Below, piece by piece: positions 1 through 62,494 of a stretch of DNA of 64,000 nucleotides. The DNA is from Phaeacidiphilus oryzae TH49 (GTDB taxonomy: Bacteria; Actinomycetota; Actinomycetes; Streptomycetales; Streptomycetaceae). Below the pieces are notes generated by a model, which did no database searches, was not told where the DNA came from, and saw only the letters and a program-made list of their open reading frames with translations. A program made the translations under genes and the position numbers. Every line of letters starts with the position of its first letter. The stretch's first letter is position 1. The DNA lies in assembly GCF_000744815.1 (NCBI RefSeq), contig NZ_JQMQ01000005.1:1-64000 (forward strand), read 5' to 3'.

Positions 1-1155
1 GCGCGCGGACCGGGGCGCTGGACGGACGGAAGGCGCGCCCGTGCGCGGGTCGAGCGGCACGCGGAGGAGCTGATCGCACTGTCCGAGCGGCTGCACGCCG
101 ACCCGGAGACCGCCTGGGAGGAGCACGGGCCGCGGCCGCGGTCCCCGAACTCCTCGACCGGCGGCTTCGCGGTGACCGCGCTACCTCGGCCTGGACACGG
201 CCTTCCATGCGCGCTTCGGCCAGGGCCCCCGTCCGCATCGCGCTGTGCGCCGAGTACGACGCGCTGCCGGGCCTCGGGCACGCCTGCGGCACGACCTGAT
301 CGCGGCAAGCGCGGTCGGCGCCGCCCTCGGCCTGGCCGCCGTCGCCGACGAGGCCGGGATCACCGTGGAGGTCTACGGCACCCCGCGGAGGAGGGCGGCG
401 GCGGCAAGATCGAGATGCTCGACCGCGGCGCCTTCACCGGGGCCGACCTGGCCATGATGGTCCACCCGGCGCCGGTGGACGTCGCCGAGGCCCGGCCGTT
501 CGCGGTGAGCCACTCGCGGATCTCCTACACCGGCAGGTCCGCGCACGCCGCCGCCTACCCGGAGGCCGGCGTCAACGCCGCCGACGCGTTCACCGTGGCG
601 CAGGTCGCGATCGGCCTGCTCCGCCAGCAACTGCCGCCCACCACCCGCGTCCACGGCATCGTCACCCACGCGGGCGACGCCCCGAACGCCATCCCGGAGC
701 GGGCCGAGGGCCGCTGGTACGTCCGCGCGGAGACGCTGGCCGAGCTGGAGCGGCTGGAACCACGGGTACTGCGCGCCTTCGAGGCCGGCGCCCTGGCCAC
801 CGGCTGCGAGCTGGACGTCGAACCGGAGAGCAAGCCGTACGCGGAGTTCCGGGCCGACGAGACCGCCCTCGCGGACTACCGGGCGAACGCCGTCGCCCTC
901 GGCCGGCGGTTCGCCCCGGCGGAGACCGCCGCGCGGATGAACCGCGCCTCGACGGACATGGGCAACGTCTCGCAGGTGGTGCCCGCCATCCACCCGTACA
1001 TCGGTATCGGCTCCCTGCCGGCCACCAACCACCAGCGCGAGTTCGCCGCCTTCTGCGTCGGCCAGGCGGCCCGGCGGGCGCTGCTGGACGGGGCGGTGGC
1101 CCTGGCCTGGACGGCGGTGGACCGGGCGGCGCGGGGGCCGTCGGCGAAGCCCTGA
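1..1155 (+). pseudogene. M20-family amidohydrolase/peptidase, multiply frameshifted
   Basis: From about base 400 to the stop at 1155 a single frame encodes the C-terminal two thirds of an M20 metallohydrolase of the AbgB/PM20D2 type. It includes the dimerisation-domain phrase SYTGRSAHAAAYPEAGVNAA and the late motif STDMGNVSQVVPAIHPYIG. Before base 400 the protein can only be read by jumping frames about six times. Fragments such as VERHAEELIALSERLH, IALCAEYDALPGLGHACG and DLIAASAVGAALGLAA lie in different frames. The breaks fall in G/C runs near 126, 170, 180, 227, 291 and 384. The metal-binding phrase GHACGHD lacks one base. The product would be a cytoplasmic zinc or manganese amidohydrolase acting on small amides or dipeptides. 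Either the gene is decayed or this end of the assembly is error-prone; the 5' end may lie outside the window. Confidence 0.8.
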
Positions 1156-1253
1156 ACCGAACACCCACCGACCGGGGCATGTCACATTTCCCGCTGCTGT
1201 GATGTCCTCCCTGGGCAAGGTCAGAACGATCTCCACCTGAGGGAGCGTCACCG

Positions 1254-1760
1254 ATGAAGGCCGTCATCGTCTGCGTCTCGGAATCCCACGGCAACACCAG
1301 GCGGGTCGCCCAGGCCATGGGCGAGGTGCTGGACGCGCCCGTGGTCGACCCCGCCGAGCTCGACCCGGCCGCGCTCGCCGGCTACGACCTGGTGGGGTTC
1401 GGCTCCGGGATCTTCCAGATGAACTTCCACCGGCGGCTGCGGGACTTCGTGGACGCGCTCCCGCACGCGCCGGAGGGCCGGTCGACCCGCGCCTTCCTCC
1501 TGGCCACCAGCGGCCTGCCGGAACCCCGCCCGGTCCGGTACGTGCGGCGGCTGACCCGGAGGGTGGAGGCGAAGGGCCTCCCCGTGCTGGACGCCTTCAC
1601 CTGCCGCGGCTTCGACACCTGGGCCCCCTTCAAGCCGTTCGGCGGCCTCCACAAGGACCGTCCGCACGCCGGGGACCTGGCCGCCGCCCAGGCCTTCGCC
1701 CAGGGGCTGCGGAAACTCCAGGAGCCCCCGGCGCGGGCCGGCCGCCGCACGGCATTCTGA
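1254..1760 (+). CDS. flavodoxin-family protein
   Basis: This 168-residue cytoplasmic protein begins with a flavodoxin beta-strand and FMN-phosphate loop (VIVCVSESHGNTRRVAQAMG, residues 4-23). A second-strand region, DLVGFGSGIF (about residues 45-54), would sit by the flavin ring. It is expected to bind FMN and act as a small electron carrier or a protoporphyrinogen/quinone-type flavodoxin; the partner cannot be told from sequence. A GAGGGAG ribosome site lies 7 bases before the ATG. The gene is 100 bases downstream of the broken M20 gene and is followed by small stress-type genes on the same strand. Confidence 0.85.
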   Translation: MKAVIVCVSESHGNTRRVAQAMGEVLDAPVVDPAELDPAALAGYDLVGFGSGIFQMNFHRRLRDFVDALPHAPEGRSTRAFLLATSGLPEPRPVRYVRRLTRRVEAKGLPVLDAFTCRGFDTWAPFKPFGGLHKDRPHAGDLAAAQAFAQGLRKLQEPPARAGRRTAF

Positions 1761-1916
1761 GCCGCCCCCGCCCCCGGGCCCGCTCCCGCCCCGGGCCGGC
1801 GCCCCGCGTTGCGCTGTTCGGGGCCGCCGCTGATTGAGCGGACGGGGTCCGGGGAGAAGCTGTTCCGGCACGCGGGGAACCCGCGGCCACCGGAGTCCGC
1901 ACAGGAGGAGGCGATC

Positions 1917-2078
1917 GTGTTCAAGGTGCTGCTGGTTCTGCTGTGCCTGGTGCTGCCCTGGCTGGCAGTGCTGATCAAGGAGGGGCCGAGTCTGCGGGTG
2001 CTGTGGGCCTTCCTCCTCCAGCTCTGCGGCCATGTGCCCGGCGTGGTCTACGGGATCTACCGGGTGGTCAACGACTGA
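1917..2078 (+). CDS. YqaE/Pmp3-family small membrane protein
   Basis: This is a 53-residue proteolipid with two hydrophobic segments (residues 2-20 and 27-48). It has the family pattern LPWLAVLIKEGPS, then a second helix containing GHVPGVVYGIY. Pmp3/YqaE proteins sit in the plasma membrane and are linked to cation and stress tolerance. The reading frame is open upstream to an ATG at 1809. I chose the GTG at 1917 because AGGAGGAGG ends directly before it and the upstream residues do not look like protein. CsbD, another stress-type gene, follows on the same strand. Confidence 0.85.
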   Translation: MFKVLLVLLCLVLPWLAVLIKEGPSLRVLWAFLLQLCGHVPGVVYGIYRVVND

Positions 2079-2209
2079 CGGGCGCCGTCCCCCGGCCTGC
2101 CCGCCGAACGGGTGAGCCGCCCCTCTCGACATGCGCGACCCGGCCCGTCCGCCCAGGCTGGACAGCGATCCCGGCGAGGGCCGCCGGGAAACGCACCGAA
2201 AGGGTGGCC

Positions 2210-2434
2210 ATGGGCACCGACGACATGCAGCGCAAGGCGGACGAGGCTCTCGGCAAGGCCAAGGAGAAGGCCGGTGAGCTCAAGGGGGACGAGCGGATGC
2301 GGGGCGAGGGCCAGGGCGACCAGGCCGAGGCGAAGGCGGGCCGGCTCGGCGACAAGGCGCAGGACGCGACCGACCAGGCCAAGGAGAAGGCCGAGGGCCT
2401 CGCGGACCGCGCCAAGGGGATGCTCGACCGCTGA
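2210..2434 (+). CDS. CsbD-family stress protein
   Basis: This is a 74-residue, highly charged, alanine/lysine/glutamate-rich protein containing the CsbD signature (KADEALGKAKEKAGELKGDE, then a second copy-like segment DQAKEKAEGLADRAKG). CsbD proteins are small soluble general-stress proteins of unknown biochemical role, under sigma-B in Bacillus. The ATG is preceded by GAAAGG. The frame is open further upstream, but that part has no protein character. I see no convincing sigma-B-type promoter in the short upstream gap. Confidence 0.85.
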   Translation: MGTDDMQRKADEALGKAKEKAGELKGDERMRGEGQGDQAEAKAGRLGDKAQDATDQAKEKAEGLADRAKGMLDR

Positions 2435-2557
2435 GGGCCCCGCTGAGGCCCCGCCCGGAGCCCCGCCCCGGGACACCCGCGGCGTCGGCCCCCGACCCGC
2501 TCCGCCGGACGGCGTCTCACCGTGCCGGCGGGCGCGTCGGAGGCGAGGCCAGAGGGC

Positions 2558-2947
2558 TCAGTGCCGGCGGTGGAGGATCCCGCGGCGGGTGCCCTTGAGG
2601 GCGTCCTCCCGCCCCTGCGCCTGCGGGCTGGGCTGGGTGCGGCCCACCAGGGCGTCGCGCTCGTCGGCGAGCCGGTCGCGCTCGGCCTCCAGGCGGTCGC
2701 GCTGGCGCCGGTGCTCGGCGGCCCGCCGCGTCTTGCGGCGGGCGGAGCCGACCAGCATCGCCAGTCCCAGCAGGATCGCCGCCCCGACGAGGGCACCGAT
2801 CACGAAGAGGACCCAGCCACTGGTGACCCCCAGACTCTGTCCGAAGATCGTGGGCGCCGGGGAGATCCTCGCGGAACTGTTCTCGATGAGCAGATCGATG
2901 CCGAAGACCGCGGCGGCGGCGATGAGCAGGAGCCCGAGGATGATCAT
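2558..2947 (-). CDS. membrane protein with LapA-like layout and coiled coil
   Basis: This 129-residue protein starts MIILGLLLIAAAAVFGIDLL and has two transmembrane segments (about residues 1-20 and 42-64) joined by a short loop. A basic cluster (ARRKTRR) and a charged heptad-like helix (HRRQRDRLEAERDRLADERD) follow. The two-helix-plus-cytoplasmic-helix layout resembles LapA/DUF1049 proteins, but similarity is by shape only. GGGGAGA lies 7 bases before the ATG at 2947. The frame extends further upstream without protein-like sequence. It is convergent with the csbD-type gene. Confidence 0.7.
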   Translation of the reverse strand: MIILGLLLIAAAAVFGIDLLIENSSARISPAPTIFGQSLGVTSGWVLFVIGALVGAAILLGLAMLVGSARRKTRRAAEHRRQRDRLEAERDRLADERDALVGRTQPSPQAQGREDALKGTRRGILHRRH

Positions 2948-3061
2948 TTCGATCTCCCCTTTCCCATCTCTTCGGCGGCCCGCAGGCAGCCGATCGAGCA
3001 TCCACACGATCGATTATCCGGCGGTGGCCGCGCCCTCGCCGCCCGGGAAGCCCGCTCCCCC

Positions 3062-4705
3062 TCAGGCCGGCGGGAGGCCCAGCGCCCGGCGTGCCAGCCG
3101 GAAGTACTGGTCGCCGCGGACCACCCGGTACCGGGTGTCCAGCGAGCCGGCGATCGTCGCGACGTCGGCCGGCACCAGGTTCCAGGCCAGGGTTCCGATG
3201 GACAGGAAGAGCGGGGCGGATCCGTCCCACCCGGCGGACTCCTGCGCTATCGCGTCCTTCGCCTCCTGCACCGAGCTGGTGAGCCGGCTGACCGACAGCG
3301 GCACCCGGCCCTCCAGCGCGGTGGTCCGGGTGTAGTCGGTCCAGTGCTGGAGGAGCCCCAGCGGCCGGATGTCGGCCAGGTACTGGAGCGCCTTGGCGTC
3401 GGGCAGCGGGACGTCCGCCCCGGAGACCCGGTTGAGGATCACCGCGCTGTCCAGCCCGGTGCGGCGCATATAGCGGGCGGAGAGCTGCGAGTAGACCGGG
3501 AAGCTGTCGTCCGGCCAGGGCGTCGGGTACGCGTAGCCGGCGCCCGAGGGGCCGGCCATCAGGTAGTCCCAGGCGGTGCCGGTGCGCTGGTAGTAGGAGA
3601 GGAAAGCCGGAGCGGCGTCGGCGAGCAGCGGGTTGGTGGTCCAGTTGATCGGCACGCTGCCGCGCGCCGGGTCGTCCCAGATCTTCCGCATCCGGTGCTG
3701 GCCGTACTGGAGGTTGTCGCCCTCGGTCATGGTGAAGGTGACGTAGATCCGGTTCTCCAGGCGCGGGGTCGGCAGGGCGGGCTGCCGTGCCGAGAGCCCG
3801 GCCGGCACTCCCCCGAAGACGGTGAGGTTCTGCGACCAGTCCGCGGCCAGCACCACGAGCCCGTGCTGCGACGTGAGTTCGGTGCCGTCGCTCTCGCCGC
3901 CGACCCCCGCCGGCCACCATCCGAGGTACGGGGAGCCGGGCGCCATCTGCGACATCACCTGGTCGCCCAGCGCCCGGGAGTCCGCCTGGTCGGGGTGGAT
4001 CCAGAGCACCAGGGCTCTGGTGGCCACCGCGTAGTCGCGGAGGTAGGCCCCGATGGTGGGGTCGAGCCCGACCAGCAGGCGGTGGCTGGTCCGCGGCCAC
4101 AGCTCGTCCACCGCCCAGCGGTAGGCGGCCAGTTCGTCGGTGAAGCGGCCACGCAGGTCCTCCAGTACCTCCAGCCGGTAGGGCGCGGCGGTCAGTGCCG
4201 GGAGCTGTTCCGGCGAGACCGCCACCGCGTCGCGCAGCCCGGCCAGGGTGGTGGCCAGGTTGACGGTGGCCGGCTGGGCCGGATCGGTCACGATGAGGCC
4301 GCGGATCTCCGCGCGGTACTTCGCCAGCAGTGACCGTGGGTCGCCGACCGTGCGGCTGGGCACGCCGATGCCGTCCAGCCAGGTGGTCTCCCCCTCGTCG
4401 GCGGGCCGCAGCAGGGCGATCCGGGGCCGAGCGCGGTTCACCACCCCCTGCAGCGTCGCGAACAGCAGCTGATCGGCGGTGCTCGCGGTGGTCAGATCGA
4501 CCACGTCCAGGGCCGCGGGCGCGGCGAACGAGGGCAGCGCCTGGCCCTGCGGCCAGCGCAGTCCGCCGGCCGGCGACGGCGCCGCGGCCGCCGTGGCCGT
4601 GGCCGCGAGCGCCGTACCGGAGAGCCCGGTGCTGAGCGCGGCGCCGGCGCCGGCCGCGCCGAGCAGACCGAGCAGGCGGCGGCGGCTGGGGTGGGAAGGG
4701 GACAT
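3062..4705 (-). CDS. secreted GxGYxYP-domain putative glycoside hydrolase
   Basis: This protein of about 547 residues has a twin-arginine-like export signal (SRRRLLGLLGAAGAGAAL) and the family-defining motif GAGYAYP (about two thirds along). That motif is typical of the GxGYxYP family, predicted to be carbohydrate-active. Conserved-looking aromatic and acidic patches include FTMTEGDNLQYGQHRMRKIW and PWPDDSFPVYSQ. The likely role is extracellular attack on a polysaccharide, with unknown substrate. I chose the ATG at 4705 because GGAGG lies 7 bases upstream; a GTG at 4720 overlaps that site. A palindrome typical of LacI-family operators lies 40 bases upstream, which suggests sugar induction. 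Confidence 0.8.
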   Translation of the reverse strand: MSPSHPSRRRLLGLLGAAGAGAALSTGLSGTALAATATAAAAPSPAGGLRWPQGQALPSFAAPAALDVVDLTTASTADQLLFATLQGVVNRARPRIALLRPADEGETTWLDGIGVPSRTVGDPRSLLAKYRAEIRGLIVTDPAQPATVNLATTLAGLRDAVAVSPEQLPALTAAPYRLEVLEDLRGRFTDELAAYRWAVDELWPRTSHRLLVGLDPTIGAYLRDYAVATRALVLWIHPDQADSRALGDQVMSQMAPGSPYLGWWPAGVGGESDGTELTSQHGLVVLAADWSQNLTVFGGVPAGLSARQPALPTPRLENRIYVTFTMTEGDNLQYGQHRMRKIWDDPARGSVPINWTTNPLLADAAPAFLSYYQRTGTAWDYLMAGPSGAGYAYPTPWPDDSFPVYSQLSARYMRRTGLDSAVILNRVSGADVPLPDAKALQYLADIRPLGLLQHWTDYTRTTALEGRVPLSVSRLTSSVQEAKDAIAQESAGWDGSAPLFLSIGTLAWNLVPADVATIAGSLDTRYRVVRGDQYFRLARRALGLPPA

Positions 4706-4744
4706 GATCGAGACCTCCACGGGAACGGCTGTCCGAACAAGCGG

Positions 4745-4778
4745 GACAACGTTGTCAGGAAGCTCACGGAGGAGTCAA
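4745..4778 (-). promoter_or_regulatory. LacI-type operator plus -35 element upstream of the GxGYxYP gene
   Basis: GACAACGTTGTC (4745-4756) is a perfect 12-base palindrome with a central CG, the layout favoured by LacI-family repressors of sugar genes. On the minus strand a TTGACT hexamer (4773-4778) lies 17 bases before it, so the palindrome would cover the -10 region of the promoter for the gene starting at 4705. No LacI-family gene is present in the window, so the repressor would be encoded elsewhere. Confidence 0.6.
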
Positions 4779-4890
4779 TGCCCCGTCGGACAATCGCCGC
4801 CCCCGGCCAAACACCCGGTTCCGCATGCCCCACGCGGCCCTGGGCAGGTGAGCTGGCGTACCGCCACCGGAAGCCAGGAGGAAGCCAGTC

Positions 4891-5157
4891 ATGGGCTCGT
4901 TCACCGTCACCACCACGACCGAGGTCGACAAGGAGCTGTCCGCCTACAGCGAGGAGCGGCGGCAGGTGCTGCTCGAGGCCCTGGACCGCCTCTCGGACGA
5001 ATCCACGCTCCTGGAGGGCGAACCCGATACCGCCGGCGCGCATGCCGAACTGGCGCCGGGGGTGGTCTTCAACTGGGTGGTCGTGGTCCCGGCCCGGCTG
5101 GTGATCGTCTGGCAGCTGGGCGTCCGCGACCAGGAGCTCTCCACGCTGGGCGGGTGA
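4891..5157 (+). CDS. small hypothetical protein, RelE/ParE-like outline
   Basis: This 88-residue protein has an excellent AGGAGG ribosome site. A helical N-terminal part (VDKELSAYSEERRQVLLEALDRLSDE) is followed by beta-rich sequence (GVVFNWVVVVPARLVIVWQLGV). The order, helices then strands, recalls RelE/ParE-fold proteins, but no diagnostic residues are visible and no antitoxin gene lies beside it. Function is unknown. It stands alone between the GxGYxYP gene and the carotenoid operon. Confidence 0.6.
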   Translation: MGSFTVTTTTEVDKELSAYSEERRQVLLEALDRLSDESTLLEGEPDTAGAHAELAPGVVFNWVVVVPARLVIVWQLGVRDQELSTLGG

Positions 5158-5201
5158 CCGCAGGACTGCCGCGGACCCCCCGGGGCAGTCCGCGCGACTC
5201 C

Positions 5202-6194
5202 TCAGGGCAGCGGGCCGCCACCGGGGAAGCGGCCTTCGGCCCGCAGTTGCCAGCGGCGTTCCGCGTAGGCGAGGTCGTCCCGCCACAGCCGGGCGGCGGT
5301 GGCACGCAGCACGGCCCGCAGCACGGGGGCGGCCCGGCGGGCCGCGGCGAACCCGCGGCGCCCCGAGGACGCGATGACGGCCTCGACCACCGCTGTCCGG
5401 GGGGCGGTGGCCGAGCGGCGGACGGGGACGGCATGGGTCTCCACCACCGAGCCGGTGCCCTCCCCCTCGGTGATCCGCATGACGACGGTGCGCGGTTCGG
5501 GCGCGGTGAACCGGGCCCGGACCGGGACGACGAGCCCCCCGGCCACCTTGAAGGCCACGTCGACGTCCAGGACGTCCCCGTCGCCCGCGGGCGGCCGGAC
5601 GGTGAGGTCGACGAAGGAGTACGGGTGGAACCAGGCCCCGTGCCAGGGGTCGAGCCGGTTGGCGACCACGTCCTCCGGCTCGCAGCGGCCCTCGACGGTG
5701 TAGACCGCGGCCACGCCCTCGCCCGGCGGCGGACGCTCGGGAAGGTACGGAGCCGCCGTCGGTGCCTCTCCCCCGGCGCCGTCCAGGCGGACCCAGAGCA
5801 GAACCCCGTCGTCGTGCGCGGGGAACGGCCGCCATCCGGCGTGCGGCCGGCCGGTGAGACGGAGGCCGTGCCAGTGGCAGAGGAGGGTTCCGCAGGCGGT
5901 GCGGGCGTCCTTGAGGGGGGCGCCCAGGTGGGGGCAGGCGCCGGGCCCGGCCAGCACCGCGCCGTTCGGCCCGCGCCAGGCCACGACCTCCTGGTCGGCG
6001 ATGGTGCGGCCGAGGGGCGGGCCGTCCGGGCGCAGCTCGCGGGAGGGGGCCAGGACGTACCAGTTGCCCGAGGGGCGGGCGGTGCAGCGTTCCAGGGCGC
6101 GGGCGATCAGGGCCCGGGAGGCCTGCCGCCAGGTGGGCGGCTGGTCCTGCCAGCGGGTGCGGCCGCGGCGACGGCTGAGGGGCAGGGACCTCAC
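5202..6194 (-). CDS. Rieske [2Fe-2S] protein of the carotenoid operon (DUF5914-like)
   Basis: This 330-residue protein has a Rieske cluster site: Cys87-Pro-His89 and Cys106-x2-His109 bind a [2Fe-2S] centre. The C-terminal 200 residues contain an aromatic-oxygenase-like region ([20 protein letters not shown]). I recall Rieske proteins of this kind (DUF5914) next to actinomycete crt genes; the recollection needs checking. It is the last gene of crtE-crtI-crtB, and its GTG start overlaps the crtB stop by 4 bases (GTGA), implying translational coupling. It probably modifies the carotenoid or its end group; the reaction is unknown. No crtT or crtV is seen, so it may take the place of an end-tailoring step. 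Confidence 0.8.
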
Positions 6195-54654: not shown

Positions 54655-56415
54655 TCAGACCGCGCCCTCCTCGGCCTCCTCTACGGGCCCGGCCGACTCC
54701 GCCTCCTTGGCATCGGCGTAGGAGTCGACCGGCACGGCGTCCATCGGGAAGGGGACCGGGCAGGAGGGGCCGAAGAGGAGGGCCCCGGCCTCCTCCGCGG
54801 AGGCCGCGATCGCCGCCAGCACCCCGGGCACCAGCGGCTCCGCGGCATGCACCACCACCTCGTCGTGCTGGAAGAAGACCAGTCGCGGCGGGTCGCCCCC
54901 GGCCGCGCCGCCGAGTTCGGCGAGTCGGCGGCGCAGGGAGACCAGCAGCACCAGGGCCCATTCCGCGGCGGTGGCCTGGATCACGAAGTTCCGGGTGAAC
55001 CGGCCCCAGGCGCGGGCGGAGCCGCTGACCGGGACCGGATCGCCGTCCTCGCCGAACTCCCGGGCGCCCTCCCCGTCTCCGAGCACCGGGGAGACCCGGC
55101 CGAGGAGCGAGCGCACCGAGCCGCCGGACTCCCCCGTGCGGGCGGCGGCCTCCACCAGCTCCATGGCGCGCGGGAAGCGGTGCCGCAGCACGTTCACCAG
55201 CTGGCCGCCCTCGCCGCCGGTCTGCCCGTACATCGCGGCGAGGAGGGCGATCTTGGCCCGGGCCCGGTCGCCGCCGAAGGCCTCGGCGGCCAGCCCGGCG
55301 TAGAGGTCGCCACGGGCCGCCGCCCGGGCCAGCCCGGGATCGCGGGACATCGCCGCGAGGATCCGCGGCTCCAGCTGACCGGCGTCCGCCACCACCAGCC
55401 GGTGCCCCGGGTCGGCCACCACCGCCCCGCGCAGCACCCGGGGGATCTGCAGCGCCCCGCCGCCGCGCGAGGCCCAGCGGCCGGAGACCACGCCGCCGAC
55501 CACATACTCGGGGCGGAACCGGCCGTCGCGCACCCAGCGGTCCTGCCAGGCCCAGCCGTGGGCGGTGTGGATCCTGGCCAGCTCGCGATAGCGGACCACC
55601 AGCGGCGCGGCCGGATGGTCCAGAGCCCGCAGCTGGTGCATCCGCAGCGAGGGCAGGCTGATCCCCTGCTCGGCGAAGGCCCGCAGCAGCTGGGCCGGCG
55701 AGTCGGGGTTGAGCCGCGGGCTGCGCAGGGCGCGCTGGATCTCCTGGCCGAGGGCGGCCAGCGCGGGCGGCAGCGCCCCACCGGAGGCCGCGGAGGCACG
55801 GGGGCGCGGGCCGAGGAGCTCGACCAGCAGGCGGTCGTGCAGCTCGGTGCGCCAGGGCAGCCCGTCGAAGCCCAGCTCGGCGGCGGCCAGCGCGCCGGCG
55901 GACTCGGCGGCGGCGAGGAGGGTGAGCTCGCGGCCGGCGGCCCGCAGCCGGCGCAACTGGTCGGCGTGCACCTCGACCAGCGCGGCCAGCGGGTCGACGC
56001 CTGGCGGCAGGTTGCTGCGATCGGCGACCACGCTGAACAGGGCGTCCTGGTCCTCGTGCGCGGCGTGGTGGGGTTCCGCGTCGGGCGGCTCGGGGTGGCC
56101 GTGCAGCCGGGCCCAGGCGGCGCCGAGCGACCGGGGGCGGCCCAGCGCGCCCTCGGAGCCCAGCAGCAGCCGTTCGGTCAGGGCGACGTCATGGCAGCGG
56201 CCGAGCCGGGCGCGGCGACCGGTCAGCTGCGGCAGCAGCCTCGGATAGAGCTCGTCGGTGTCGGCCCAGACCCAGCGGGGATGCCCCTCCCGCTCCACCT
56301 CGGCCACGGCGACGGCGAGGTCGGGCACTCGGCGCGGTGCCCCCAGGGCGCGCCCGTCGTCCGCGAGCCACTGGAGCACTCCCCCGGCGCCGTCCAGGTC
56401 CGCCACCAGCGCCAT
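54655..56415 (-). CDS. DNA polymerase I-like protein (family A, possible 3'-5' exonuclease fold)
   Basis: In this 586-residue protein the C-terminal half has family A motifs: motif A (LVVADAGQLEPRILAAMS), motif B (RARAKIALLAAMYGQTGG, with the Arg, Lys and Tyr of the O-helix) and motif C (VFFQHDEVVVH). The N-terminal 200 residues resemble a 3'-5' exonuclease domain that has lost clear Asp-Glu-Asp ligands. No 5' nuclease domain is present. It probably repairs short gaps. The ATG at 56415 has AGGGG upstream; a longer frame begins at 56469. Confidence 0.85.
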   Translation of the reverse strand: MALVADLDGAGGVLQWLADDGRALGAPRRVPDLAVAVAEVEREGHPRWVWADTDELYPRLLPQLTGRRARLGRCHDVALTERLLLGSEGALGRPRSLGAAWARLHGHPEPPDAEPHHAAHEDQDALFSVVADRSNLPPGVDPLAALVEVHADQLRRLRAAGRELTLLAAAESAGALAAAELGFDGLPWRTELHDRLLVELLGPRPRASAASGGALPPALAALGQEIQRALRSPRLNPDSPAQLLRAFAEQGISLPSLRMHQLRALDHPAAPLVVRYRELARIHTAHGWAWQDRWVRDGRFRPEYVVGGVVSGRWASRGGGALQIPRVLRGAVVADPGHRLVVADAGQLEPRILAAMSRDPGLARAAARGDLYAGLAAEAFGGDRARAKIALLAAMYGQTGGEGGQLVNVLRHRFPRAMELVEAAARTGESGGSVRSLLGRVSPVLGDGEGAREFGEDGDPVPVSGSARAWGRFTRNFVIQATAAEWALVLLVSLRRRLAELGGAAGGDPPRLVFFQHDEVVVHAAEPLVPGVLAAIAASAEEAGALLFGPSCPVPFPMDAVPVDSYADAKEAESAGPVEEAEEGAV

Positions 56416-56990
56416 TCGCGCCCCTGCCACCACTCCCACCCGGCCGAAGCTATCACCAGGGTCCGACAACGCCGGGCCGACCGGCGGCGCCGCCCCGTCC
56501 GCGGGGCCCGGAGGGCGGAAGGCGTGAATCCGACTCCCAAGGACTCCGTAATGCGCCCGTGATTGTGAGCTGGATCGCCCGTATTGTTTTTGCCTCTTTT
56601 GCCGGGTTGCGGTAGCCGCGGCCGGGTGGCGGAGTGCGCCAGGTCACTTTCCGGAGCCATTTCCGGGGCCTTGGAGGTGAGGCCGCCCACAGGGCCGCGG
56701 GGAACACGAATCGGGATAGTCGAAGGCGCAGGCCCCAGCAGGCCTGGGGAGCGAAGCCGATCGGGTCTGACTACGGAGCTCTCCGTAGATGGGGCATTTG
56801 GGCCGGTCCGGGTTCTCTGGCTATCAATGACTCATCGCAATCGCCGCGGTGGAAACGAACCGCGGTCCTGTTCCGCAGGGCACCGATCCCACGGTGTGCC
56901 CCGGCGCCCGGAAATCCGATGGCCGCCGACGAAGCGGCCGCCGGCAGAAAAACTTCCGGCGCCCCGACTACCGATTGAGGTTTCGCCCGT
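56416..56990. other. long leader/gap with palindrome before the transglycosylase gene
   Basis: The 575-base gap is less GC-rich than its surroundings and holds no gene I can support. It contains the palindrome CTACGGAG-CT-CTCCGTAG (56771-56788), 200 bases before the start at 56991. I looked for a c-di-AMP riboswitch and did not find its conserved core. A long structured leader is plausible. Confidence 0.5.
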
Positions 56991-59071: not shown

Positions 59072-59653
59072 TCAGGCGGCGAATCCGATGCCGGAGCAGT
59101 ACTCGTAGCCGCCCCAGTCCGAGCCGAGGTCTTCCAGGACGGCGTCCTGCCACTCCGCCGCGAGTTCCGCCTCGTCGCCCTCGGCCCAGGACTCGACGAT
59201 GCCCTCCCAGTGCCGGACGTTGACGCTGCGGTGGGTGGTGACGTTGCCGCGCCGGCGCGCGCCCTGGACCTGGGACTGGTCGTGGGGATGGATCTCCACC
59301 CTGGTGCCGCGGCCCCGGTTGTTCAGCCGGCGGATCAGGTATTCGGCGACGTTGCGGCGGCGGAGGGCGAGGTAGGCGGCGTCCACCCGGTCCCGGTTGG
59401 CGCGGCTGGGGCCGGCTTTGCCCGTCTGCCAGCGCCTGAGGGTGCGTGCGGTGACGGTGACGCCGGCCGCGCGCAGCGCCTGGTCGCCGCCCTTGTGCCG
59501 GGCGAGGTAGTTCAGGCGGGCGGTCAGGCCGCGCCGGGAGGTGACGGGTGAGGCGATGCCGTGGGCGATCTCGTCCAGCCGCCGCCCGGCCAGGCGCCAG
59601 CCGGGCTCGCCGCGCATGCCGTACAGGTGGGGCTGGAGGTTGTTGTACGGCAT
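59072..59653 (-). CDS. Tpg-like terminal protein candidate
   Basis: The 193-residue basic protein has a helix-turn-helix (about 38-95): SRRGLTARLNYLARHKGGDQ, then TARTLRRWQTGKAG. The C-terminal half ends with VLEDLGSDWGGYEYCSGIGF, beta and acidic. Size, HTH place and a strand-like acidic end match the Tpg terminal proteins that cap linear Streptomyces DNA, though residue identity seems low. It starts four bases after the tap-like gene, in the same gene order as tap-tpg. If right, it would be joined covalently to the 5' ends of the replicon; the linking residue cannot be named. Confidence 0.6.
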   Translation of the reverse strand: MPYNNLQPHLYGMRGEPGWRLAGRRLDEIAHGIASPVTSRRGLTARLNYLARHKGGDQALRAAGVTVTARTLRRWQTGKAGPSRANRDRVDAAYLALRRRNVAEYLIRRLNNRGRGTRVEIHPHDQSQVQGARRRGNVTTHRSVNVRHWEGIVESWAEGDEAELAAEWQDAVLEDLGSDWGGYEYCSGIGFAA

Positions 59654-59657
59654 CGGC

Positions 59658-61310
59658 TCAGCCCCTGCCCTCGATCAGGTACTCGTCCTTGACCTTCACC
59701 TCGGCCACCCCGCGGCCCTCGGTGAACACCTGCCGCCAGTCTCCGCCGGTGAGGTGGAGCTCGTCGGTGCCCGTCATCCGTACCACGGTCAGGCCGTGGC
59801 CGTGCGCCTTGTGGGCCTTCACCCACAGGTTGGCGAAGGCCTGGGAGCGGATGATGTGCATCCAGTCCGGGCGGTGGATCTCCCGGTTGTAGGTCGATTC
59901 GCCCATGGTGGAGACGAACTTGGCGTACATCGACTTCACGTACTCCAGCGTCAGGTCGTCCCCGTCGGCGATCGCCCTGTCGCGGGCGTCGCGCAGGGTG
60001 GCGCGGAAGCGCTCCAGGATGTTCTCCGAGGAGACCGCGGTCCAGGACTCCAGGATCTGCGGCGGCTCGCACAGCGCGCCGTAGCGCTCGGTGGCGCAGC
60101 GCTCCAGCAGGCGCAGGGTGGGGTCGGTGATCCACAGCGGGCCGGGCTCCTCCCGCGCCCCCAGCGGGTTGGGCAGGTCCTCGCAGGTCCACTCCGGCGG
60201 GTCGACCAGGTAGATGCCGGAGCGGCGGCGCTTGCGGCCACCGGGGCCGTCCCGGTCGTCCAGCACGTCGCCGGCGCGGTGCTCCAGGGGGCCGATCGGC
60301 AGGTGGGCCTTGAGGGCGGAGAGGTAGGCCGCGTTCATGTCCAGCGCCACCACCTCGTGGGTGCCCTTCCCCAGGGCGCGGTTGCGCCACTTCGGGCGGG
60401 CCTCCCACACCTCGTCGGCGTCCTGCTTGGAGCGCTTGCGCAGCAGGTCCGGCAGCGGCGGGAAGAAGGTGTTGTCATAGCGGGCGCCGGTGCGGGAGGC
60501 CTTGAACAGGGCCATCGCGTCCGGGATGGCCCGCCGGTCCAGCGCGGTGGCGGCCGCCTCGACGTCGCCCTCGGCGGTGGCCAGCTCCTCCGCCACCGCC
60601 TGCGGGATCATCTCCTCCAGCTCCATGCCGGGCTGGACCAGCCGGGCGTCCGCGCGGGCGCCGCCAGGACGGCCGGCGGGGGCGGGCGCCGCGTCGGCGG
60701 GCCGGGGCGGGCGTTCTGATGCCGTGGCGGGCTCGGCGGCGGGCTCGGGCTTGGTCGCGGGCCCCGGGGCGGCGGCAGGCGGCCGGCCTGCGGATGCGGG
60801 CGCCGGTGCCGGTACGGGTACGGGTGCGGACGCGGACGGCGGGTTCGGGGCCGCGGGTCGGCAGAAGTTGCCCAGGTGGCGCGGGCGTCCCGCCGACCGG
60901 TACGGAGTGGGCTGCCCGCAGACCAGGCAGGGCCCCGGCGGACCGGTGACCAGTTCGCCGGCGGCGTCCCGGTCCATCGCCGGCAGTGCGTCCGGGCCCT
61001 CATGCGGATCGGGCCGCGGGCCCGGCTCGGCGTCCGCCGGCGGCGGCGAGGCGGCGGCGAGGCGCTCGGCCAGCCCCTCCAGCAACCGAAGGTACGCGGC
61101 CCGCTTGGCGGTCGGCGGCTCGGTGCGCCCGGCCTCCCAGCCGGCCAGCGTGCTGGGGTGGATCCCCAGGGCGCCCGCGACCTGGGGGCGGCTCAGTCCG
61201 GCGTCCTCGCGCAGTTGCCGGCGCACTGCCGGGGGCGGCAGCTCCACCGGCGGCGCGACGCCGGCCAGCAGCGCGTCCACCGCGGCGAAGGGGTCATCGG
61301 CCATCGCCAT
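59658..61310 (-). CDS. Tap-like telomere-associated protein with family B polymerase-like motifs
   Basis: This is a 550-residue protein. The XRE-type HTH spans about 24-80 (RRQLREDAGLSRPQVAGALG, then HPSTLAGWEAGRTEPP). Next come Cys128, Cys131 and Cys150 (zinc-like), then a Pro/Ala linker (155-215). The C-terminal region shows motif A-like VALDMNAAYLSAL (Asp324), motif B-like YVKSMYAKF (Lys464) and motif C-like TGTDELHL (Asp516). The N-terminus and layout match streptomycete Tap, which is known to bind telomere DNA and recruit Tpg. GAGGAG precedes the ATG; the padR stop overlaps its start by 17 bases. It may prime or copy chromosome ends. Confidence 0.65.
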   Translation of the reverse strand: MAMADDPFAAVDALLAGVAPPVELPPPAVRRQLREDAGLSRPQVAGALGIHPSTLAGWEAGRTEPPTAKRAAYLRLLEGLAERLAAASPPPADAEPGPRPDPHEGPDALPAMDRDAAGELVTGPPGPCLVCGQPTPYRSAGRPRHLGNFCRPAAPNPPSASAPVPVPAPAPASAGRPPAAAPGPATKPEPAAEPATASERPPRPADAAPAPAGRPGGARADARLVQPGMELEEMIPQAVAEELATAEGDVEAAATALDRRAIPDAMALFKASRTGARYDNTFFPPLPDLLRKRSKQDADEVWEARPKWRNRALGKGTHEVVALDMNAAYLSALKAHLPIGPLEHRAGDVLDDRDGPGGRKRRRSGIYLVDPPEWTCEDLPNPLGAREEPGPLWITDPTLRLLERCATERYGALCEPPQILESWTAVSSENILERFRATLRDARDRAIADGDDLTLEYVKSMYAKFVSTMGESTYNREIHRPDWMHIIRSQAFANLWVKAHKAHGHGLTVVRMTGTDELHLTGGDWRQVFTEGRGVAEVKVKDEYLIEGRG

Positions 61311-61656
61311 CGTCCTTGCTCCTCGGCGCCTTCGGCCCGGTCGGCCCGGTCGGGTCGCTGGGGTCGCTGGGGTCGCTGGGCGACCAGTACACGGCGGCGG
61401 CCGCCGCCAGGGCGCGCGGCGCCGCGTCGGCGCCGCGCGGGGTGAGGGTGTAGTAGCTGCGCACGGGGCGGCCCGCGGCCGAGGGGTCGACGTCCTCGCG
61501 CTGACGCGCCAGCCACCCGGCGCCCGCCAGCCGCGCCAGGATCGGGTAGAGCGAGCCCGAGCGCAGGCCCGTCAGCTCCATCAGCTCCATGCCGTACCGG
61601 GGCGTGCCCGGCTGGGCGAGCAGGGCGTTGAGCACCCGGGCCGTGGCCGGCGTCAT
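61294..61656 (-). CDS. PadR-family regulator of the tap-like operon
   Basis: The 120-residue PadR protein has a winged helix (MTPATARVLNALLAQPGTPR, then YGMELMELTGLRSGSLYPIL) and a wing (RPVRSYYTLTPRG). The end is a short tandem-repeat tail (SDPSDPSDPTGPTGP). GGAGG precedes the ATG at 61656. It is the first gene of the operon, and its own promoter carries a PadR-type dyad. Confidence 0.85.
   Translation of the reverse strand: MTPATARVLNALLAQPGTPRYGMELMELTGLRSGSLYPILARLAGAGWLARQREDVDPSAAGRPVRSYYTLTPRGADAAPRALAAAAAVYWSPSDPSDPSDPTGPTGPKAPRSKDDGDGR
61332..61378. repeat. 9-base tandem repeats in the padR 3' end
   Basis: Two TCGGCCCGG units (61332-61349) and three GGGTCGCTG units (61352-61378) encode the Ser-Asp-Pro and Thr-Gly-Pro repeat tail. 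The 9-base period keeps the reading frame. Confidence 0.75.
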
Positions 61657-61676
61657 CCGCACCTCCGCACCCCCTA

Positions 61677-61692
61677 TGTACTGGACTCTACA
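61677..61692. promoter_or_regulatory. PadR-type dyad
   Basis: TGTA-CTGGACTC-TACA lies 20 bases before the padR start. PadR proteins commonly bind inverted repeats of this kind. It is also in the divergent gap before the leucine-rich-repeat gene, so both could be controlled. Confidence 0.6.
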
Positions 61693-61774
61693 GAGGGAGA
61701 ACCTATCAGGATCCGGACCCGGGAGGTGGCCCGGCGCGGGGTTGTCGACGGCCCGATCGCCGGAAATCCGAGAA

Positions 61775-62494
61775 ATGCGACCGACACTCGACCTCTGGCG
61801 CGCGCACCTCGGCGAAGTGCCCGAATGGGTTTGGCTGCGCACCGAACTCCAGGTGCTGATCCTGGCGGAGAACGACCTCACCGACCTCTCACCCCGGATC
61901 TCCCGGCTGAGCCGGCTCACCACCCTGGACCTCGGCCACAACCGGCTCACCTCGCTGCCCCCGGCTTTGGGCGAGCTGACCGGCCTGAGCGACTTCCTCT
62001 ATCTCCACGACAACGCGCTGTCCCGGCTCCCCGGGGAGATCGGCGGGCTGACCCGGCTGCGCTATCTCAACATCGGGGAGAATCCGCTGACCGCCCTGCC
62101 CGAGAGCATCGGCCGGATGGCCGGACTGATCGAGCTGCGGGCCCGGCACCTGCGGCTCACCGCGCTGCCCTCCGGCATCGGCGGGCTCCGCGCACTTCGC
62201 GAGCTCCGGCTTCGGGGGAACCGGCTCGCATTCCTGCCCGGGTCGCTCTCCGGTCTGCGCGAATTGCGCCACCTCGAACTGCGGGAAAACCTCTTCGCAG
62301 AGGTTCCGGATATAGTGGCCGGACTCCCCCGGCTGCGCAGCCTCGACCTGCGCGCCAATCGCATCGGCCGCATTCCCGATTGGGTCGCGGGCATGCCCGC
62401 GCTGGAGAAACTGGATCTCCGCTGGAATCCCTGCGAACCCGCGCCGTCTCTGCTCGCGGCGCTGGACCGGCGGGGCTGCGCGGTACTGCTGTGA
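61775..62494 (+). CDS. leucine-rich-repeat protein
   Basis: The 239-residue protein is made of about nine 23-residue leucine-rich repeats, from LQVLILAENDLTDLSPRISR to LEKLDLRWNP, with the core LxxLxLxxNxLxxLPxxIxxL. It has no signal peptide or membrane segment. It is probably a cytoplasmic protein-binding solenoid. It is divergent from the padR-tap-tpg-like operon; function is unknown. GAGAA precedes the ATG. Confidence 0.85.
   Translation: MRPTLDLWRAHLGEVPEWVWLRTELQVLILAENDLTDLSPRISRLSRLTTLDLGHNRLTSLPPALGELTGLSDFLYLHDNALSRLPGEIGGLTRLRYLNIGENPLTALPESIGRMAGLIELRARHLRLTALPSGIGGLRALRELRLRGNRLAFLPGSLSGLRELRHLELRENLFAEVPDIVAGLPRLRSLDLRANRIGRIPDWVAGMPALEKLDLRWNPCEPAPSLLAALDRRGCAVLL

Follow-up and report, generated by a model that had tools for sequence, protein, structure and literature searches.

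Gene organization of the locus

The stretch of DNA analysed here (the window, 64,000 nucleotides) comes from Phaeacidiphilus oryzae TH49, whose 7.8-Mb genome is available in six contigs; it occupies the first 64 kb of one of these, 6.86 Mb long. Near the right end of the window three genes are packed on the reverse strand. The first, at 61294-61656 (-), starts with ATG and encodes a PadR-like protein of 120 aa (Pfam PadR PF03551, E 5.5e-9, above cut-off). It overlaps by 17 bases (61294-61310) a gene at 59658-61310 (-) for a 550-aa protein with an XRE-type helix-turn-helix (HTH), which we term Tap-like from its matches to HTH_31 and NF047542 and the profile match of its core to Tap. A gap of four bases (59654-59657) separates this from the last gene, at 59072-59653 (-), encoding a 193-aa protein with an HTH in its N-terminal half, termed terminal-protein-like from its profile match to the Tpg family and its AlphaFold2 (AF2) model. 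When the ORFs were re-read, all three genes, their common direction, the overlap and the gap were as a sequence-only reading of this DNA had placed them. The tap-like/terminal-protein (TP) pair occurs once in the P. oryzae TH49 genome, a profile search included. Promoter, terminator and Rfam scans were empty.

Two neighbours complete the picture. The operon is followed after about 2.6 kb by a gene at 54655-56469 (-) whose product is a bifunctional 3'-5' exonuclease/DNA polymerase of family A (NF011538, E 3e-199), probably an ordinary one. Divergent from the PadR gene, at 61589-62494 (+), is a gene for a leucine-rich-repeat protein that matched LRR effector-type models below cut-off.

The sequence-only reading had taken all three genes as one PadR-tap-tpg module. 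The tap-like/TP gene order recurs in genome and plasmid relatives and so is not a chance arrangement of ORFs, but the PadR gene, although real and in place, is a local feature: the slot upstream of the tap-like gene in relatives is usually occupied by a small XRE-HTH gene (95-110 aa, with a 4-nt overlap), and no PadR gene was found in the ~107 relative loci examined. We therefore reject PadR as a part of the module; it is probably a local regulator of the operon.

A divergent Tap/terminal-protein pair

The 550-aa protein consists of an N-terminal XRE HTH and CCHC motif, a Pro/Ala-rich linker and a C-terminal core resembling family-B DNA polymerases (PolBs). The HTH covers residues 31-80 (61071..61220 (-); Pfam HTH_31, E 4.7e-9). 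The motif, read from the sequence, is CxxC-x13-H-x4-C (C128, C131, H145 and C150; 60861..60929 (-)); it is a possible zinc knuckle that may bind metal, and a similar CxxC...H...C motif is found in most of the HTH-type plasmid relatives. The NCBIfam model telomere_Tap (NF047542) hits residues 8-192 only, with E 1.5e-21 and 76.8 bits, below its curated cut-off of 600 bits. The core was matched by hhalign to the archetypal/Rhodococcus-type Tap profile, with E 7e-15 over 225 columns that extend through polymerase motif C.

The 193-aa protein matched no Pfam, NCBIfam or PHROG family, including the Tpg model NF047541, to which a control Tpg scored 293.8 bits. With hhalign it did match the Tpg family (E 8e-8, probability 94.5, 19% identity), the HTH included. 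Its AF2 model has pLDDT 88.9 and pTM 0.82, and a fold search with that model found no PDB match at E < 1. Residue S127, in a loop comparable to that of the Tpg T114 priming site, is shared by 58 of 61 sequences, though not by all of the DnaB-fused relatives described below; that S127 is the priming residue is a weak guess.

These profile matches, together with scores under the curated cut-offs, identify the two proteins as remote homologues of Tap and Tpg rather than members of the curated families. The sequence-only reading had proposed a divergent tap-tpg-like module and suggested comparing both proteins with Tap and Tpg; both matched in the hhalign comparison, which bears the proposal out, and by sequence comparison the two form a divergent pair of Tap and terminal protein. 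They share with archetypal Tap-Tpg the gene order and sizes, the N-terminal HTH, a core and a TP that are homologous by profile, and the pattern of polymerase motifs A, B and C, whereas the middle region of Tap (~150-200 aa) is missing from the 550-aa protein, which has the CCHC motif instead.

The N-terminal part varies among relatives, being an XRE-HTH with CxxC...H...C, a DnaB-type helicase, or neither. The closest cores to that of the 550-aa protein are in Embleya proteins (74-76%), several of which are helicase-fused, indicating that N-terminal modules have been swapped within the family. Of known systems, the helicase-bearing types to compare are the pRL2 Tap-like/helicase pair and the DnaB-fused relatives. 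Five of the latter (L019, L020, L022 at 3408-5912, L023 at 2210-4978, and L025) share the polymerase core and an adjoining TP gene, and differ from the 550-aa protein in having an N-terminal DnaB-type helicase in place of the HTH. In L023 a complete DnaB is fused to the core. These are apparently natural helicase/protein-primed-polymerase fusions.

The C-terminal core resembles the palm of phi29 DNA polymerase

The conserved core, about residues 230-550 (59661..60623 (-)), is predicted by AF2 and Foldseek to be a phi29-like PolB palm/fingers region without an exonuclease domain. The AF2 model, made from 81 sequences, has pLDDT 79.4 and pTM 0.75. When it was compared by Foldseek with 350,542 PDB chains, ranks 1-8 were all phi29 DNA polymerase (E 2e-7 to 2e-5), including the complex with terminal protein (2ex3); these eight are every match with E < 1e-3, and other PolBs rank after them. 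Protein-primed viral polymerases were likewise on top in the Foldseek viral library.

Profile comparison gave the same answer. The core family matched a set of six phage protein-primed polymerases by hhalign with E 1.7e-4 and a score of 41.3, over 239 colinear columns spanning from upstream of motif A through motif C; the best of 200 column-shuffled profiles scored 26.6 and the reversed profile 17.4. The hhalign probabilities for core against PolB are moderate (49-65%). A merged Tap-superfamily profile matched PolB with E 6e-5, with no shuffle near, and the Tap-only core matched precisely on motif A, scoring 28.1 against a shuffle maximum of 22.7. A profile from a narrower alignment of 81 sequences (A3) missed the PolB match, which we attribute to its low diversity. 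HMMER searches with the core found no polymerase match in PDB, Pfam or PHROGs, so that seeing the link takes profile-profile or structure comparison. No exonuclease domain was found with Pfam; the core starts just before the palm, and what precedes it is HTH and linker. The core also has no recognisable thumb. From fold model and profiles, then, the Tap-like core looks like a phi29-like family-B polymerase palm, a point that the sequence-only reading did not raise, and for archetypal Tap the profiles suggest the same relationship.

All three PolB motifs have counterparts. The motif A-like segment VVALDMNAAYLS (60318..60353 (-); D324, N326, Y329), followed by LPIG, aligns to phi29 DVNSxYP...LPYG. 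The motif B-like segment LEYVKSMYAKFVSTMG (59901..59948 (-)), with the invariant K459, was placed by merged-profile alignment, in which the first motif-B Lys of Tap pairs with phi29 K383; the register of motif B is ambiguous, with a four-residue shift in the hhalign alignment of the core with phage PolBs. The motif C-like segment MTGTDELHLTGG (59742..59777 (-)) aligns to phi29 CDTDSIHLTG, with Gly in place of the first Asp of DTD (G-T-D) and the second present as D516. Residues D324, N326, Y329, K459, K464 and D516 are invariant in all 81 sequences.

Thus the likeness to phi29-type PolB extends to the palm/fingers fold, motifs A, B and C, a similar spacing from motif A to motif B, and a partner terminal protein. 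Unlike those enzymes, the 550-aa protein lacks the exonuclease domain and a recognisable thumb, has a single Asp in motif C, has its core fused to HTH/CCHC, and is cellular or plasmid-borne rather than phage-encoded.

Family distribution and association with linear replicon ends

A tblastn search of plasmids at E <= 1e-3 yielded ~148 records, nearly all from Streptomyces, Kitasatospora or Embleya, and every Streptomycetaceae plasmid record that we opened was listed as linear. Among genomes, a first scan with the single 550-aa protein as query found nothing, and an alignment query succeeded: this profile scan detected 307 relatives, of which the best 80 were analysed. The family is widespread in Streptomycetaceae and shows ~50% identity between species. 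A TP-like gene stands beside the tap-like gene at 61 of the 80 loci by tblastn, with a spacing mostly of -1 to 0 nt. The other 19 of the best 80 (for example L104, L115, L091 and L106), several of them chromosomal, had no adjoining TP gene by tblastn. On plasmids, the TP gene adjoins every locus whose flanking genes were readable. No relatives were found in viral contigs, and phage records gave HTH matches only.

The plasmid members are biased towards replicon ends: 26 of 54 lie in the outer fifth (KS p 1.9e-5, from rows that are not fully independent). Only some of the relatives' records look complete at their ends, with apparent truncation of the Kitasatospora indigofera end and of one end in NBC_01304. 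A 339-kb plasmid of S. cellulosae has a copy of the module in each terminal repeat, next to DEAD-box/helicase-associated genes of ttrA type. At a plasmid end of Streptomyces sp. NBC_01304, 1.1 kb from the module, palindromes and hairpins with 3-nt loops are packed together (z -3.9), and the S. avidinii end gave z -3.4; 3-nt-loop palindromes are the kind described for Streptomyces telomeres (PMC8743542). An archetypal Tap over cut-off is missing from eight of 12 genomes with the module; SirexAA-E has both.

Two further observations concern individual plasmids. The linear plasmid pRLB1-9.2 of Streptomyces sp. RLB1-9 carries the tap-like/TP pair (L018:3923-6135); a published analysis states that the RLB1-9 plasmid (written pRLB1-9.1 there) is without a homologue of Tap or Tpg (PMC7205883). 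Tap-core relatives also occur on plasmids of Microbacterium and Mycobacterium intracellulare whose records give them as circular (L125, L127), either through mislabelling or because the genes have a different role on these plasmids.

The P. oryzae TH49 replicon

We considered the contig starts as telomeres and rejected them: the contig ends are assembly breaks. Window positions 1-1960 are the tail of contig C6 (26,031 bp), running directly into the C6 head at 1961-4702 (100% identical), after which the sequences diverge; contigs C2 and C3 repeat parts of C6 almost identically. This suggests that the window starts in a tandemly amplified unit or integrated circular element beside the chromosome arm, and such a 26-kb tandem or circular element would account for no telomere being visible at the contig start. 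The dnaA gene is at 3.57 Mb, a central position if the contigs join in the order C6-C5-C4 across an rRNA operon; that order, if right, would place the tap-like/TP operon near one chromosome end. The P. oryzae TH49 genome has no archetypal Tap over cut-off. A search of it for the helicase-associated (HA) domain found no match, with the control silent too.

Discussion

We consider it highly probable that the two downstream genes form an end-replication machine for linear DNA, with a reduced phi29-type PolB core. Replication would leave a 3' overhang at the DNA end. The HTH/CCHC N-terminus of the Tap-like protein would bind the folded overhang and hold the small terminal protein, and the C-terminal PolB core would join the first nucleotides to a terminal-protein hydroxyl. 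The terminal protein would remain on the 5' end as a cap, and another polymerase would finish. The catalysis, the overhang binding, the priming residue and the activity on the P. oryzae chromosome are steps that we infer. A core with neither exonuclease nor recognisable thumb fits a primer-maker of low processivity, in line with the 13 nt measured for Tap (PMC4513846).

A fairly likely possibility, and one compatible with this explanation, is that the module belongs to the GtpB-GtpA class of S. griseus, which is already genetically characterised, in which case no new telomere class is at hand. Judged by its published description (PMC7205883), GtpB-GtpA is an atypical Tap/TP operon with similar identity levels: GtpA is reported to be 18% identical to Tpg, against the 19% found here for the TP, and GtpB-GtpA is a chromosomal two-gene operon with ~50% identity between species, the level also found for the family here. 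The sequence-only reading had suggested a distinct telomere class on this replicon; this is no more than a possibility, as the contig start is not a telomere and GtpB-GtpA may already stand for such a class. Tac-Tpc of SCP1, also compared by description, has an analogous role, Tac polymerising on Tpc (PMC4513846), and differs in that Tpc is 259 aa and reported to be unrelated to Tpg (PMC3572947).

A possible objection is that the module has no part in maintaining the chromosome ends, being a relic left by the integration of a linear plasmid into a chromosome arm. The abundance of the family on linear plasmids is in keeping with this, as are the lone copies evidenced by the 19 TP-less loci among the best 80 of 307 and the coexistence of the module with an archetypal Tap in SirexAA-E. 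However, both genes are intact and tightly spaced and are the sole such pair in a genome where no archetypal Tap exceeds the cut-off, and dnaA would be roughly central in the contig order given above; we thus regard a relic as unlikely.

We give somewhat less credence still to a second objection, namely that the core keeps the PolB fold with catalysis lost, so that the Tap-like protein only recruits the TP, leaving nucleotide addition to DinB, Pol I or another enzyme. The Gly at the first motif C Asp and the lack of exonuclease and recognisable thumb are compatible with lost catalysis, and earlier models gave Tap a tethering role only (reviewed in PMC4513846). Yet every one of the 81 sequences keeps the motif A Asp, motif B Lys and second motif C Asp, which is not what a decaying active site would show; in vitro, Tap and Tac polymerise with no polymerase added (PMC4513846); and primer-independent PolBs (piPolBs) miss the same motif C Asp and are active (PMC7544198). 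Finally, an ordinary cluster of HTH transcription regulators, as might be read from the DNA-binding HTH or winged-helix regions in all three proteins and from database annotations that are mostly 'helix-turn-helix' or 'transcriptional regulator', is very improbable in view of the phi29-polymerase fold, the Tap/Tpg homology, the bias to linear-replicon ends and the fusion of the core to DnaB-type helicases.

Returning to the end-replication machine, Yang et al. (2015) showed that short DNA is made on the TP by Tap together with Tpg (13 nt) and by Tac together with Tpc, and stated that Tap and Tac have no DNA polymerase motif and that Streptomyces has no B-family polymerase (PMC4513846). Our comparisons suggest that the motif is present but diverged. 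The main text of a 2020 survey of B-family polymerases mentions neither Streptomyces nor linear plasmid, and we found no Tap-PolB link in the open literature, a search that leaves subscription papers and preprints outside its scope. We think it probable that the whole Tap superfamily (here archetypal Tap, the Rhodococcus/Microbacterium/Mycobacterium relatives, the HTH-type family and the DnaB-fused types) makes up a so far unrecognised lineage of protein-primed family-B polymerases that lack an exonuclease, some members being natural helicase-polymerase fusions.

Which enzyme starts DNA synthesis on the terminal proteins of actinobacterial telomeres has so far been unclear, with Tap and Tac acting in vitro (PMC4513846). 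If the proposal is true, the PolB core of the superfamily would be the source of the polymerase activity measured for Tap, so far assigned to no motif. A phi29-like palm in the Tap-like proteins would provide exact residues to mutate and would tie the bacterial telomere to phage protein-primed replication, and the family may offer candidate proteins for those replicons whose telomere proteins are unidentified (PMC8743542).
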